IMG/VR virus record: IMGVR_UViG_3300027233_000019
Span: 1-25,639 of that record
Origin: a virus
Strand: one strand, 5' to 3'
DNA length: 25,639 bases
The translations under genes and the position numbers were made by a program. The notes beneath the pieces are model-generated. The model was not told the DNA's origin. It ran no database searches and saw only the letters and a program-made list of their open reading frames with translations. Shown one piece after another: positions 7,133-18,817 of the stretch; within the stretch, counting starts at the first letter, position 1, and the number at the start of each line of letters is the position of its first letter.

Positions 7133-7161
7133 TTGACAAATCATGGTTAATGTGATATAAT
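7133..7161 (+). promoter_or_regulatory. Early sigma70 promoter (TTGACA-17-TATAAT)
   Basis: Perfect -35 TTGACA (7133-7138), 17-nt spacer and perfect -10 TATAAT (7156-7161), with the TGTGA extension before the -10 found at most early promoters here. It is the first early promoter after the late region and marks the late/early boundary. Predicted +1 is near 7167, giving a short leader to the gene at 7185. Confidence 0.9.
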
Positions 7162-11888: not shown

Positions 11889-13088
11889 ATGATTGATATA
11901 GTACCATTTCAAAATGTTTTAGATCAACTTAAGGACGATGGAAACTATCGTGTCTTTAACGATATAGTTAGAGAGCGCGGTAAGTTTCCTCGTGCTACAT
12001 GGTATTCTAAATATAGTCCAAAAACAATAATTAGTTGGTGCTCCAACGATTATCTAGGTATGGGTCAAAATCAATATGTGATTGATGCGATGTCTACTGC
12101 TTTAGAAAAGACAGGAAGTGGTAGTGGAGGAACACGTAATATTGGTGGCACCTCTCACTATCATGTTACGTTAGAAAAAGTATTAGCTGATTTGCATTCT
12201 AAACCAGCTGGTCTTTTGTTTACTTCAGCTTATGTTGCAAACGAATGGAGCATGATCGCTCTATCACGTATTATTCCAAAAATATGTTTTGTTTCTGATA
12301 ATAAGAATCACGCTTCATTGATTGTTGGGATAAACCACTCTCGCGCTCATAAACATATATTTGAACATAACAATATGGAATCGCTAGAAGAGTGTTTACA
12401 AGTTACTGTTGAAGCTGGTTATGTACCATGTATTGTATTTGAATCAGTATATAGTATGGATGGAGATGTCGCTCCTATTGAAGAGATTTGCGATTTAGCA
12501 GATCAGTATGGTGCAATCACATATATCGACGAAGTACATGCCGTAGGTTTATACGGAGACACAGGTGCAGGATACTGCGAAAAATTAGGATTACAAGAGA
12601 GGGTAGATATAATTAATGGAACTTTGGGAAAAGCGTTTGGTGGCCACGGAGGTTATATTGTTGGTGATAATGTTGTGCTTGATGCTATCAGAAGTGTAGC
12701 AAGTGGATTTATATTCACAACTTCTTTATCTCCTGTAATGTGTGCAGGCTCTATTGCCTCAATACGATACTTGCAAGACCATAATGAGATTAGAGAGAAA
12801 CACCAACGTAACAGTTTAATTGTAAAAGAAATGATTATAGAAGCTGGACTCGAAGTACACGAAGAAGCTTGTACTCATATTATTCCAGTTATGGTTGGAG
12901 ATTCTAAACGTTGTAAAGCAATGTCAGATTATCTCTTAAACACTCATGGAATCTATATACAACCAATTAACTATCCAACTGTTGATAGAGGAACAGAACG
13001 ATTAAGAATTACGCCCACCCCCATACATACAACCACAATGATGTATGAGTTAGTTGAGGCACTCGTAGACACGTTTGAAAATATTTAA
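11889..13088 (+). CDS. hemA: 5-aminolevulinate synthase (ALAS), phage auxiliary metabolic gene
   Basis: 399 aa, full family length; PLP enzyme condensing glycine and succinyl-CoA to 5-aminolevulinate, the first step of the Shemin route to heme and other tetrapyrroles in Alphaproteobacteria. Visible motifs: [17 protein letters not shown] (76-92, the ALAS form of the substrate loop), SDNKNHAS (H141 stacking on PLP), [12 protein letters not shown] (D214, H217) and [12 protein letters not shown] with Schiff-base K248. The TRNI-GGT loop argues for ALAS over the related AONS, KBL and SPT. It begins 14 nt after nrdB with only a weak ribosome-binding site, so coupling to nrdB is likely. No other heme gene is in the window. 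Confidence 0.92.
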
Positions 13089-16958: not shown

Positions 16959-17162
16959 ATGCCAATCAAATTCAAAGAAAATCAAGTAGTTAGAGATAAG
17001 GCTACAGGAAAGAAAACCACTCATAGATTTCATATGAACGCAACTGCGTTAAAGGAATTACTTGAAACATTTTCAAGACGTGGTACTTCTCCAAAACTTA
17101 GGCAAAAGATACGCAACGAATTGATTCGAAGAAACGTTGAAATTCCTGCGATCGCTGATTGA
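16959..17162 (+). CDS. Small basic helical protein
   Basis: 67 aa, basic, with GGAG 8 nt before ATG. Begins PIKFKENQVVRDKATGKKTT, then two helices (ALKELLETFSRRG, KLRQKIRNELIRR). Likely nucleic-acid or protein binding, but no family is recognised with certainty; similar short proteins occur in T4-like marine phages. A HIP1 octamer lies at 17148, near its stop. The early promoter of the first structured RNA starts 29 nt after the stop. Confidence 0.65.
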   Translation: MPIKFKENQVVRDKATGKKTTHRFHMNATALKELLETFSRRGTSPKLRQKIRNELIRRNVEIPAIAD

Positions 17163-17191
17163 AAATAAGTCAATTATTTTTCATCTAGGGG

Positions 17192-17220
17192 TTGACAAGG
17201 GCCCCAAACTGTGATATAAT
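17192..17220 (+). promoter_or_regulatory. Early sigma70 promoter for the long structured RNA
   Basis: TTGACA (17192-17197), 17-nt spacer ending TGTGA, TATAAT (17215-17220). The -35 sits in the loop of a GGGG (17188-17191) / CCCC (17202-17205) inverted repeat. Predicted +1 near 17227. No credible protein-coding frame follows for more than 350 nt. Confidence 0.92.
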
Positions 17221-17226
17221 ATACTT

Positions 17227-17650
17227 ATATTGAGGGAAACACCCCCGTCGGTAAGAGAAAGTAGAACTCGCGGTTCTACACACCGAGGAGATAGTTTGCA
17301 CGAGATGACGACATTATCGATCGTTCAGAGGCAAGATTAAAGGTGGACAAACCCGTACGGTAGCTTAAGGAAGACCGATCTAGGAATAGATGTAATCACA
17401 CGGGTACAGAACGAATCAATATAGACTGAGGCGAGCTCGGGTATGAAGAAACGCTTGATACCATAGTGGGAGAGAAACCCCGCAGTCGGAAAGGGATAGG
17501 CTATTAGGTTTGCGCCTTATAGCGACACAAGAACTTAGCGGTTCAGGATCTTTTATCTTTAGGAAATTCAGGAGGCTTAATTGCTACCCCTGCTTGGAAT
17601 ACTGATATTAACGAGTACGATGTAAGTCCGAGGCCAGCCAGTCGCTCTAT
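17227..17650 (+). ncRNA. Long structured non-coding RNA (about 420 nt), family not recognised
   Basis: A stretch with no long open frame, higher G+C than its surroundings, and a perfect early promoter at its start. Several strong helices are readable: GTAGAAC/GTTCTAC (17261/17273, 7 bp) inside TCGGT/ACCGA (17248/17282); ACCCGT/ACGGGT (17351/17400) enclosing CGGT/ACCG and AUCUA-GGAA-UAGAU, a GNRA-capped hairpin (17378-17391); GACUG/CAGUC (17424/17483) enclosing GGTAT/ATACC (17440/17458) and GTGGG/CCCGC (17466/17479); GCTAT/AUAGC plus AGG/CCU (17500-17523); GAAC/GTTC (17531/17541). There are no tRNA, tmRNA, RNase P or 6S hallmarks. An SD-preceded 14-codon frame lies at 17581. The 3' end is uncertain: no clear terminator, and a T-rich stretch near 17650. 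Ends are approximate. Confidence 0.8.
17581..17625 (+). CDS. Possible 14-residue hydrophobic peptide inside the long RNA
   Basis: A perfect AGGAGG (17570-17575) lies 5 nt before TTG 17581, which opens a frame reading (M)LPLLGILILTSTM and stopping at 17625. The ideal ribosome-binding site inside an otherwise non-coding RNA makes either a hydrophobic peptide or a non-translational ribosome-binding role possible. TTG start and short length keep confidence low. Confidence 0.3.
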   Translation: MLPLLGILILTSTM

Positions 17651-17658
17651 TTTATATT

Positions 17659-17820
17659 ATGAATAAACCCAATAAAAACTTTCTAATTAACTTTAGTCCA
17701 CTATTGATAGTGGCTGTTGTTATGCTAACTATAATCATCTGCTCTTACTTAAATGATAGAGAAGAAGTAGTTGGATACACAGACCACGGAATTCCTATTA
17801 AAAAGAAAGAAATAAAATGA
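17659..17820 (+). CDS. 53-residue single-span membrane protein
   Basis: ATG 17659 follows the long RNA directly. Reads [14 protein letters not shown], then a hydrophobic span ([17 protein letters not shown]), then a charged tail ([19 protein letters not shown]). No good ribosome-binding site, so expression would come from read-through of the 17192 promoter. Its TGA overlaps an in-frame ATG at 17817 of the longer version of the bS21 frame (ATGA), which could make a second bS21 isoform. Function unknown. Confidence 0.5.
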
Positions 17821-17829
17821 AAAAAACAG

Positions 17830-17857
17830 TTGACAAATACACTTTGTGTGTTATAAT
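17830..17857 (+). promoter_or_regulatory. Early sigma70 promoter for bS21 (predicted leaderless)
   Basis: TTGACA (17830-17835), 16-nt spacer with ACAC/GTGT and ACAAA/TTTGT dyads, TATAAT (17852-17857). Seven to eight nt downstream lies ATG 17865, so the predicted +1 is at or next to the A of the start codon. Confidence 0.85.
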
Positions 17858-17864
17858 AATACCT

Positions 17865-18164
17865 ATGATATACAATAATAAAAACAAACTGATTAATGGT
17901 AGAACCGTTGATCTTAAGCCAGGGCCTAGACACCCTAAAGATAAAAGACCGCAAAGGGACATGCCTTTTGATATAGCACTTAGAAAATTTAGAAAACAGA
18001 TTGAAAAAGCTGGGATCGTAAAAGAACTAAGAGCTAGAGAATTTTATGAAAAGCCAACTGCAAAAAGAAAGCGCAAGAAGGCAGAAGCATGTAAGAGAGA
18101 AATGAAGAGAGTATCTTCAGAGTTCAGCCCTTATAATGCAAAAGGACAAAGACATTACAAATAA
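17865..18164 (+). CDS. rpsU: Ribosomal protein bS21, phage-encoded
   Basis: 99 aa from ATG 17865. The bS21 core is unmistakable: [38 protein letters not shown], then [10 protein letters not shown], matching E. coli bS21 from its PFDVALRRF to its C-terminal basic helix. About 30 extra residues precede the core. bS21 sits by the 3' end of 16S rRNA near the anti-Shine-Dalgarno and is exchangeable, so a phage copy can be swapped into host ribosomes. A longer frame from ATG 17817 is open, but those codons are the promoter itself, so 17865 is preferred; it has no ribosome-binding site. Internal ATG 17961 starts exactly at the core. Phage bS21 is known from pelagiphage HTVC008M (from memory). Confidence 0.93.
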
Positions 18165-18172
18165 ATGTTAAA

Positions 18173-18192
18173 AAAGGGTTGACAAACCCTTT
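18173..18192 (+). terminator. 8-bp hairpin after bS21 that contains the next -35
   Basis: AAAGGGTT (18173-18180), loop GACA, AACCCTTT (18185-18192), perfect, 9 nt after the bS21 stop. It may end bS21 transcription, although no U-run follows beyond the stem. The TTGACA of the next promoter spans stem and loop, so one element may serve both ends. Confidence 0.4.
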
Positions 18193-18207
18193 CTAATGTG
18201 ATATAAT
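18179..18207 (+). promoter_or_regulatory. Early sigma70 promoter for the short structured RNA
   Basis: TTGACA (18179-18184), 17-nt spacer ending TGTGA, TATAAT (18202-18207). Predicted +1 near 18214, three nt before the 5' arm of the RNA's closing helix. Confidence 0.92.
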
Positions 18208-18213
18208 AGTTTT

Positions 18214-18398
18214 ATAGGTTGGTGGGTAAAACCATGACGGCGAGATGGAATCACGGAGTTAATAGCTCTACCATTTAAGACCCACGACGGATATACTGCC
18301 TTCGGGAGCAACACCCTTACTACCGATACGTCTCCACGGAGAGTACCATACTGAGTAGGAACGGAACGCCAAAGAAGCGACCACCAACCACCTTTTTT
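18214..18398 (+). ncRNA. Short structured non-coding RNA (about 185 nt) closed by 9-bp end helix
   Basis: No coding frame. The ends pair: GGTTGGTGG (18217-18225) with CCACCAACC (18381-18389), followed after ACC by six T (18393-18398). Inside are GTGGGT/ACCCAC (18222/18280), which competes with part of the closing helix, enclosing ATGG/CCAT (18245/18271) and GAGTT/AGCTC (18256/18264); a CC-UUCG-GG tetraloop (18299-18306); CTTACT/AGTAGG (18316/18354) enclosing TCTC-CACG-GAGA (18331-18342). The shared bases suggest two alternative folds. Its perfect early promoter implies strong, immediate expression. I do not recognise the family; marine-metagenome RNA classes such as IMES are candidates to test. 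The U-run may end transcription or leak into the gene at 18413. Confidence 0.82.
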
Positions 18399-18412
18399 AT
18401 TATGGAGTTTTT

Positions 18413-18817
18413 ATGGCGTTAGCACGAGGATTATCTACAATCCAAAGCAAACGATACGTATCTAAAATCAACAAAGCTCGTCTAAAAGAGCTTGAATTAG
18501 AGTGGCGTAAACACAACAAATTTATGAAGCAGAAAGGTATGCACGATCTGAGATACGATAATTTCTCAGACTACCTTGACTACTGCTTTGGTAAAATCAA
18601 ACTTAAAACTACTTTCCAACCTTACGAGGCTAAAGAGACTTATCGTCGACAAGATAATAGCGATAAATATCCATCAGCTGCAATGACAAAACCAACTAAA
18701 GCTATTGATAATAGTTGGAAGGCAGAAGAAAGTAAAAACTTTACAGTAGCACCTGCATATAACAAAGGTGCTTATCAAGTAATTCCACGTACAGATGTAC
18801 AGCATATAGGTAAATAA
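18413..18817 (+). CDS. Conserved T4-like marine phage protein
   Basis: 134 aa, basic. Starts MALARGLSTIQSKRYVSK, then a Lys/Glu-rich helix (LKELELEWRKHNKFMKQ), YLDYCFGKIKLKTTFQPYE and a Pro/Ser/Thr-rich tail ending AYQVIPRTDVQHIGK. This combination (ALxRGLSTI, LExEWRxHNKxMK, FxPYE) recalls a widespread small protein of T4-like cyanophages with unknown function. GGAG lies 5 nt upstream of ATG. The gene follows the short structured RNA's U-run by 14 nt, so its expression may depend on read-through. Confidence 0.72.
   Translation: MALARGLSTIQSKRYVSKINKARLKELELEWRKHNKFMKQKGMHDLRYDNFSDYLDYCFGKIKLKTTFQPYEAKETYRRQDNSDKYPSAAMTKPTKAIDNSWKAEESKNFTVAPAYNKGAYQVIPRTDVQHIGK

Follow-up and report, generated by a model that had tools for sequence, protein, structure and literature searches.

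The window, by which we mean the whole stretch of DNA analysed (25,639 nt; 25.6 kb), comprises a whole IMG/VR record (IMGVR_UViG_3300027233_000019) and is a fragment of a T4-like marine phage. It encodes a primase, a class I ribonucleotide reductase, a DNA ligase, a RuvC-like resolvase, an exonuclease and the ribosomal protein bS21, and judged by the ribonucleotide reductase the nearest isolate is the Methylophilales phage Melnitz (Kyanoviridae; 69.7% identity). "Marine" is inferred from the relatives of the window phage and not from habitat data, which are lacking for the contigs, as are host data; the contigs are of unknown completeness.

A 67-aa ORF that ends at 17162 and a 53-aa ORF that starts at 17659 flank a gap without long ORFs. 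Specifically, no ORF of at least 60 aa is present on either strand of 17163-17744; within 17227-17648 all six frames contain stops, and open stretches reach at most 59 codons. The GC content of 17227-17648 is 47% vs. 36% for the window, and no tRNA gene is present in the window. The features of this region are:

17192-17220, + strand: sigma70-type promoter, TTGACA-N17-TATAAT, 12 of 12 consensus positions
17227-17648, + strand: structured non-coding RNA, core domains 1-3 (homologues on about 57 contigs; covariation)
17659-17820, + strand: small ORF of 53 aa, directly 3' of the RNA, with a membrane segment predicted by eye
17830-17857, + strand: bS21's own perfect promoter (consensus match)
17865-18164, + strand: neighbouring gene for phage-encoded ribosomal protein bS21 (Pfam Ribosomal_S21, E = 2.7e-17)

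The 53-aa ORF, for which there was no Pfam match, is probably a neighbour and not part of the RNA. In the homologues displayed, the -35 and -10 elements and the downstream sequence ATATTGAGGG are kept while the spacer and the flanks vary, and ATATTGAGGG begins 6 nt after TATAAT. Because its distance from TTGACA...TATAAT is constant we place the 5' end of the RNA at approximately 17227, i.e., the start given in the initial annotation, which had also noted the consensus promoter in front of it; both agree with our data. The last conserved base is at approximately 17645-17648. No convincing terminator was recognised for the window copy, and read-through into the 53-aa ORF could occur (no transcript data are available).

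Perfect TTGACA/TATAAT promoters occur nine times in the window (at 7133, 7726, 15075, 17192, 17830, 18179, 19326, 21776 and 24617), always on the + strand, vs. 0.11 expected, and TGTG precedes the -10 element in most of them. The promoter at 18179-18207 belongs to a second ncRNA candidate (18207-18402), situated between bS21 and an ORF at 18413, the ends of which pair (GGUUGGUGG/CCACCAACC) and are followed by a T run. It has no Rfam match and is 72-89% identical in L034, L018, L019, L021, L025 and L014 (relatives are given by L numbers); the first RNA was not found in three of these (L018, L019 and L021). Moreover, tetrapyrrole enzymes occur in this phage group. The window lineage likely has a 5-aminolevulinate synthase (ALAS), which is what we take the 399-aa aminotransferase-fold protein at 11889-13088 (Pfam Aminotran_1_2) to be; other lineages encode porphobilinogen deaminase (hemC), which adjoins the RNA in L133 (2206-3033), L092, L096, L101, L132, L135 and L137 and is also found in L314.

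Comparative support for the fold

The helices, 16 short ones in all, were named from the window sequence and then tested in three ways. All are on the + strand:

17227-17340, + strand: domain 1, with P0, P1, P1a, P2 and P2a
17234-6/17242-4, + strand: P0, GGG/CCC; never varies, unproven
17245-52/17282-88, + strand: P1, with G17247 bulged
17261-67/17273-79, + strand: P1a, in domain 1
17268-17272, + strand: P1a loop UCGCG, candidate symmetric kissing loop (palindrome switching)
17295-99/17331-35, + strand: P2, in domain 1
17308-11/17321-24, + strand: P2a, in domain 1
17341-17404, + strand: domain 2a, with P3, P3a and P3b; double changes in 11 of 12 counted pairs
17352-56/17400-04, + strand: P3, 95% paired
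17358-61/17374-77, + strand: P3a, 98% paired
17378-82/17387-91, + strand: P3b, GGAA loop, 100% paired
17405-17423, + strand: conserved single-stranded segment with the AAUCAAUA motif, near-invariant in all groups
17424-17487, + strand: domain 2b, where P4 (GACUG/CAGUC) encloses P4a and P4b
17424-17428/17483-17487, + strand: P4, closing helix, conserved, with imperfect pairing overall
17440-44/17458-62, + strand: P4a, 96.5% paired, four double-changed pairs
17468-70/17478-80, + strand: P4b, 87% paired, two double-changed pairs
17488-17631, + strand: domain 3, with P5, P6, P7, P7a and P7b
17500-08/17515-23, + strand: P5, in domain 3
17531-34/17541-44, + strand: P6, in domain 3
17548-50/17619-21, + strand: P7, in domain 3
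17554-57/17604-07, + strand: P7a, in domain 3
17569-72/17589-92, + strand: P7b, in domain 3

The folding energy of the 17227-17648 RNA does not stand out from that of shuffled sequences (z = -0.64; 22 of 100 shuffles fold as well). Minimum free energy is therefore uninformative and helices read by eye are not evidence in themselves; the evidence is supplied by the comparative data. A first RNAalifold consensus on the raw alignment was poor because of indels, and helix-by-helix tests were used instead.

An R-scape-like test (own script; G-test with APC) was run on a sequence-only MAFFT alignment of 33 distinct copies, with nulls generated by redistributing Fitch substitutions on the FastTree tree. 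Under this phylogenetic null, five of 83,436 column pairs reached E ≤ 0.05, and all five are 100% complementary and belong to proposed helices (P1, P3b and P5). When the 77 proposed pairs were considered alone, 14 were significant; the outermost P2 pair is among them but, being only 55% complementary, cannot be counted as support. Misaligned hairpins lower the number of significant proposed pairs elsewhere.

Sequence-only alignments of 16 copies had 85%, 93% and 91% of the cells paired and 15, 9 and 11 pairs changed on both sides, with covariation scores about twice those of shuffled controls or more and well above those of slid controls. For domain 1 the score was 0.456 vs. 0.190 shuffled. 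Domain 3, with 91% of its cells paired and double changes in 11 of 24 pairs, scored 0.265, against 0.134 when shuffled and no more than 0.074 when slid. Part of the structure had been read from the same 16 copies, which biases the comparison in its favour over the slid versions. In fitted alignments, changes on both sides were seen in 19 of 26 pairs of domain 1 (85% of cells paired; covariation score 0.432, against 0.159 for the shuffled and no more than 0.063 for the slid controls) and in 19 of 25 pairs of domain 2. Since fitted alignments lean towards the model, our argument rests on the R-scape-like test and the sequence-only counts.

The weakest helices, apart from P0 and P4, are P2a and P7. 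For P4 only 82% of the cells of the inner four pairs, and only 56% of those of the outermost pair, are standard pairs; two of its five pairs show compensatory changes (G-C/C-G and G-C/A-U) in diverged copies. Pseudoknot pairing of the P4a loop with the preceding strand looked good by eye in some groups and not in others, and is not claimed.

The initial annotation had read at least eight helices, among them a GNRA-capped hairpin (17378-17391) and a domain closed by GACUG/CAGUC (17424-17487), and held that an absence of covarying pairs in homologues would refute the structure. Such pairs are present, and the 16 helices named here outnumber the eight that it had claimed as a minimum; P0 among them is invariant and hence without a covariation test. 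The hairpin has a GGAA loop and covaries at every tested pair, and the closed domain is likewise upheld, with P4 kept in spite of its imperfect pairing. That the helices arose by chance in an unannotated coding or junk stretch, for which the unremarkable folding energy is the one supporting point, is refuted by the covariation. It is also at odds with the conservation from promoter to RNA, the independent recovery of copies by covariance models and the stops in all frames, and we consider that it can practically be discarded. On comparative sequence grounds we are close to certain that this is a real covarying RNA family.

Homologues, modules and gene contexts

Relatives were fetched via the neighbouring gene and the synthase and compared using blastn and a profile HMM; the copies retrieved range from 99% similarity down to partial similarity. 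The family was extended by searching the viral collection with two conserved motifs, with gapped motifs and with a neighbouring protein. Homologues are present on about 57 other IMG/VR contigs, a count of contigs from the motif and neighbour-protein searches that were kept only if they had a profile match. The main set comprises 64 loci, a figure that counts overlapping loci of a single contig, with 27 representatives at 97% identity. Diverged copies outside the seed are recovered by covariance models that were built for domains 1 and 2 from 16 sequences. These models match the L317 group (E about 1e-10 and 1e-16), whose loci were fetched only through the neighbouring protein gene and were missed by every earlier RNA motif search. 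A weak match in L056 sits in apparently coding sequence.

The RNA was found in no isolate phage by blastn: when 50,697 phage records were searched with the RNA and diverged copies, all that matched were promoter-like pieces, pieces of tRNA-Glu and short stretches that are unrelated. Related isolates scanned in full with the covariance models (Melnitz, HTVC008M, Mosig, C48C1 and others) yielded weak matches only, the best of which, in Melnitz, lies within coding sequence. In 84,980 genomes of bacteria and archaea, searched with one motif only, there were 100 matches, none of which was supported by the profile HMM.

The RNA is modular. In the window copy the core is approximately 420 nt, while relatives with extra 3' modules reach roughly 600-700 nt; the intermediate length ascribed to the RNA in the initial annotation thus holds for the window copy but not for these relatives. 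The 3' module, present in many relatives, is a stem enclosing a hairpin with the conserved loop ACACUAUUUAAC, and the stem differs between groups yet still pairs (read by eye); some relatives have a further module ending in a strong terminator. Compared with its 92% relative L012/L108 the window copy has lost the 3' module, which is why it ends near 17648, and it has no recognisable terminator. One subtype (L090, L128 and L126) is without P1a and has an additional branch in P3. Moreover, the central domains are missing in L137, and in L331-L333 a small ORF takes the place of the core while the 3' modules are kept; given these large deletions no single domain is indispensable. The 3' module also occurs alone upstream of tRNA-Glu in L331-L333 (L331:1817-1990; L332:3172-3345), and L326 (23-213) begins in it. 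It may constitute a separate RNA family, later joined to the core.

The gene contexts differ among lineages. The RNA precedes bS21 in the window, L108, L105, L097 and L126; hemC in L092, L096, L101, L132, L133, L135, L137, L145 and L146; and tRNA-Glu in L090, L103, L118, L128 and L140, where tRNA-Glu adjoins the RNA as it also does in L101 and L142. In L141, L160 and L166 it lies between a 443-aa large tail gene, presumably the tail sheath, and a tail-tube-like gene, and in L106 and L162 it follows a 454-aa gene. Intrinsic terminators are found close behind the RNA in L025, L096, L100, L101, L106, L135, L140, L141, L146, L160 and others. In L294 and L314 the preceding ORF runs directly to hemC and the RNA is cleanly absent. 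The larger contexts look common to related phages rather than random.

Two side observations concern these contexts. In L325 the tRNA-Glu remains and the promoter-RNA-terminator unit is absent. Further, a small predicted membrane protein with a weak DUF7220 match lies near the RNA in three contexts (L133:3030-3248, L160:4271-4504 and L096:2059-2280); as a partner of the RNA it was dropped, being present also where the RNA is absent.

Could the RNA be a cis-acting leader, i.e., a very large riboswitch or attenuator of the next gene (hemC, tRNA-Glu or bS21)? In many copies hemC is directly downstream, ALAS and hemC are both tetrapyrrole enzymes, and in the window copy no terminator intervenes ahead of the next ORF. 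We nevertheless find this improbable, because the downstream gene varies by lineage over at least four contexts (bS21, hemC, tRNA-Glu, tail tube and others), intrinsic terminators separate the RNA from the next gene in many lineages, L294 and L314 have hemC but not the RNA, and bS21 is served by a promoter of its own. The cassette-like presence and absence between intact genes, in several contexts, might instead suggest a catalytic or mobile RNA, intron-like or self-cleaving, that inserts between genes. Here, no Rfam intron or ribozyme family matched at permissive thresholds, an intergenic unit with its own promoter and terminator has nothing that must be spliced, and the contexts shared by related phages do not have the appearance of random insertion, which together make it a very improbable reading. 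The varied contexts, the terminators and the clean absences point to an accessory cassette with a trans-acting product, not a riboswitch, and in the absence of expression data we regard such a standalone unit as very probable.

Possible mode of action

Every correctly read copy has a palindrome (CGCG, UGCA or ACGU) in the P1a loop or in the loop plus its closing pair (L161 and L172, misread by the script, are left out of the tally), and these three states occur in changing P1a stems. Shuffled P1a loops hold a 4-nt palindrome in 16-36% of cases each, and three independent states would be expected by chance at approximately 0.01; this figure is our own product of the shuffle rates and is suggestive, not proof. 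The loop of the window copy has only five bases, and since one subtype is without P1a a contact mediated by it cannot be universal. Palindrome switching has served to support symmetric intermolecular kissing loops in OLE (L9.3) and GOLLD (L21a) (PMC12286853).

We propose that the RNA would be transcribed by the host RNA polymerase early in infection, an inference made without transcript data, and that it would act in trans as a folded RNA, which is likewise an inference. It might then self-associate, by way of tertiary contacts and the P1a loop, to form a homo-oligomeric scaffold similar to GOLLD, ROOL or OLE, and such a scaffold could retain or sequester some as yet unidentified macromolecule of host or phage during takeover. 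This self-associating structural RNA is in our judgement the most likely mechanism, but it is weakly supported, its function is untested and we offer it tentatively. A homo-oligomer by analogy with GOLLD and ROOL is hinted at only indirectly, by the palindromic loops, and has not been shown.

The RNA could also act as a monomer, as a trans-acting decoy or scaffold that titrates a host protein or small RNA through conserved single-stranded motifs; candidate targets are an RNase, a ribosomal protein, RNA polymerase, a defence nuclease or a host small RNA. Between variable helices there are indeed long unpaired stretches that do not vary (AAGAGAAA, AGGUGGAC, AAUCAAUA and GAAGAAAC), the promoter is of an early type, the presence or absence of the RNA is accessory and bS21 adjoins it in the window lineage; OLE has been hypothesised to sequester RpsU (PMC12286853), which we count in favour of a monomeric decoy. 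No partner has been identified, bS21 does not adjoin the RNA in the other contexts listed, and the invariant motifs would suit tertiary contacts equally well, so that we see this as possible though somewhat doubtful.

What can be read from the sequences is a predicted sigma70-type promoter, a covarying multi-domain fold, putative terminators in many relatives and a discrete cassette. Taken together, the best explanation is a new, large, modular and standalone structured RNA family of T4-like marine phages with self-association. We hold this composite to be moderately probable, a judgement that blends near certainty about the family, high confidence in the trans-acting standalone unit and a much lower expectation of an oligomer. 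That it represents a further natural self-assembling RNA class, with exchangeable modules and carried as an accessory cassette of T4-like marine phages, is at present a speculative possibility. The known RNAs that equal GOLLD, ROOL and OLE in size and intricacy are few, what they do is poorly understood and it is open how common self-assembly is among them (PMC12286853). The compact core of approximately 420 nt, the natural deletions of whole domains and the palindromic loop variants provide ready-made constructs for studying domain roles. Moreover, annotation centred on genes overlooks large RNAs, apparently acting in trans, that are carried by T4-like marine phages.

Relation to known large RNAs

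The window RNA has no match in Rfam 15 at the gathering thresholds and only noise at E ≤ 10. The Rfam covariance models for GOLLD, ROOL and OLE gave no match, at gathering thresholds or at E ≤ 10, to the window or to three diverged copies, and neither ARAGORN nor Rfam identified a tRNA, tmRNA, RNase P RNA or other Rfam family. The initial description of a long ornate RNA of unknown family, with no GOLLD or ROOL signature and not recognisable as a known small RNA, is accordingly supported by the Rfam comparison it had called for and, with respect to its being a structured RNA, by the covariation in homologues. We found no prior description in the openly licensed literature; description elsewhere is not excluded.

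The stable RNAs C and D of T4 are non-coding RNAs of T4-like phages that lie near tRNA genes and whose function is unclear; they are far smaller than the present RNA. OLE shares with it the switching from palindrome to palindrome in one hairpin loop; for P1a, only a candidate kissing loop, the switching involves three states only (CGCG/UGCA/ACGU) and the hairpin is missing in one subtype. In the window lineage alone there are also genes for bS21/RpsU and a small membrane protein nearby, as for OLE, a likeness that may be coincidence, the neighbours of the present RNA not being constant across lineages. Unlike the present RNA, OLE is a cellular RNA of extremophilic bacteria.

ROOL forms an octameric RNA cage and is, like the present RNA, large and phage-borne with many helices and no known protein partner. 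It is often near tRNA islands (PMC12286853), and the present family likewise is phage-carried and often near tRNA genes, with tRNA-Glu adjoining the RNA in seven relatives. It differs from ROOL in its shorter core and in that we found it only in marine T4-like-type contigs.

GOLLD is an RNA-only homo-oligomer that assembles into a 14-mer cage. The two have in common that they are large ornate phage RNAs first seen in environmental sequence, with one conserved and one variable part, a candidate self-pairing loop and a location near tRNA genes (here tRNA-Glu in several relatives). Many GOLLD members exceed 800 nt and have a universally conserved 3' region (PMC12286853), whereas the present core is approximately 420 nt, or up to roughly 700 nt with modules, and here it is the 5' core that is widely shared while the 3' module is exchangeable or dispensable. 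We rate the RNA as a new family, one that belongs to the already known kind of large ornate phage RNAs.
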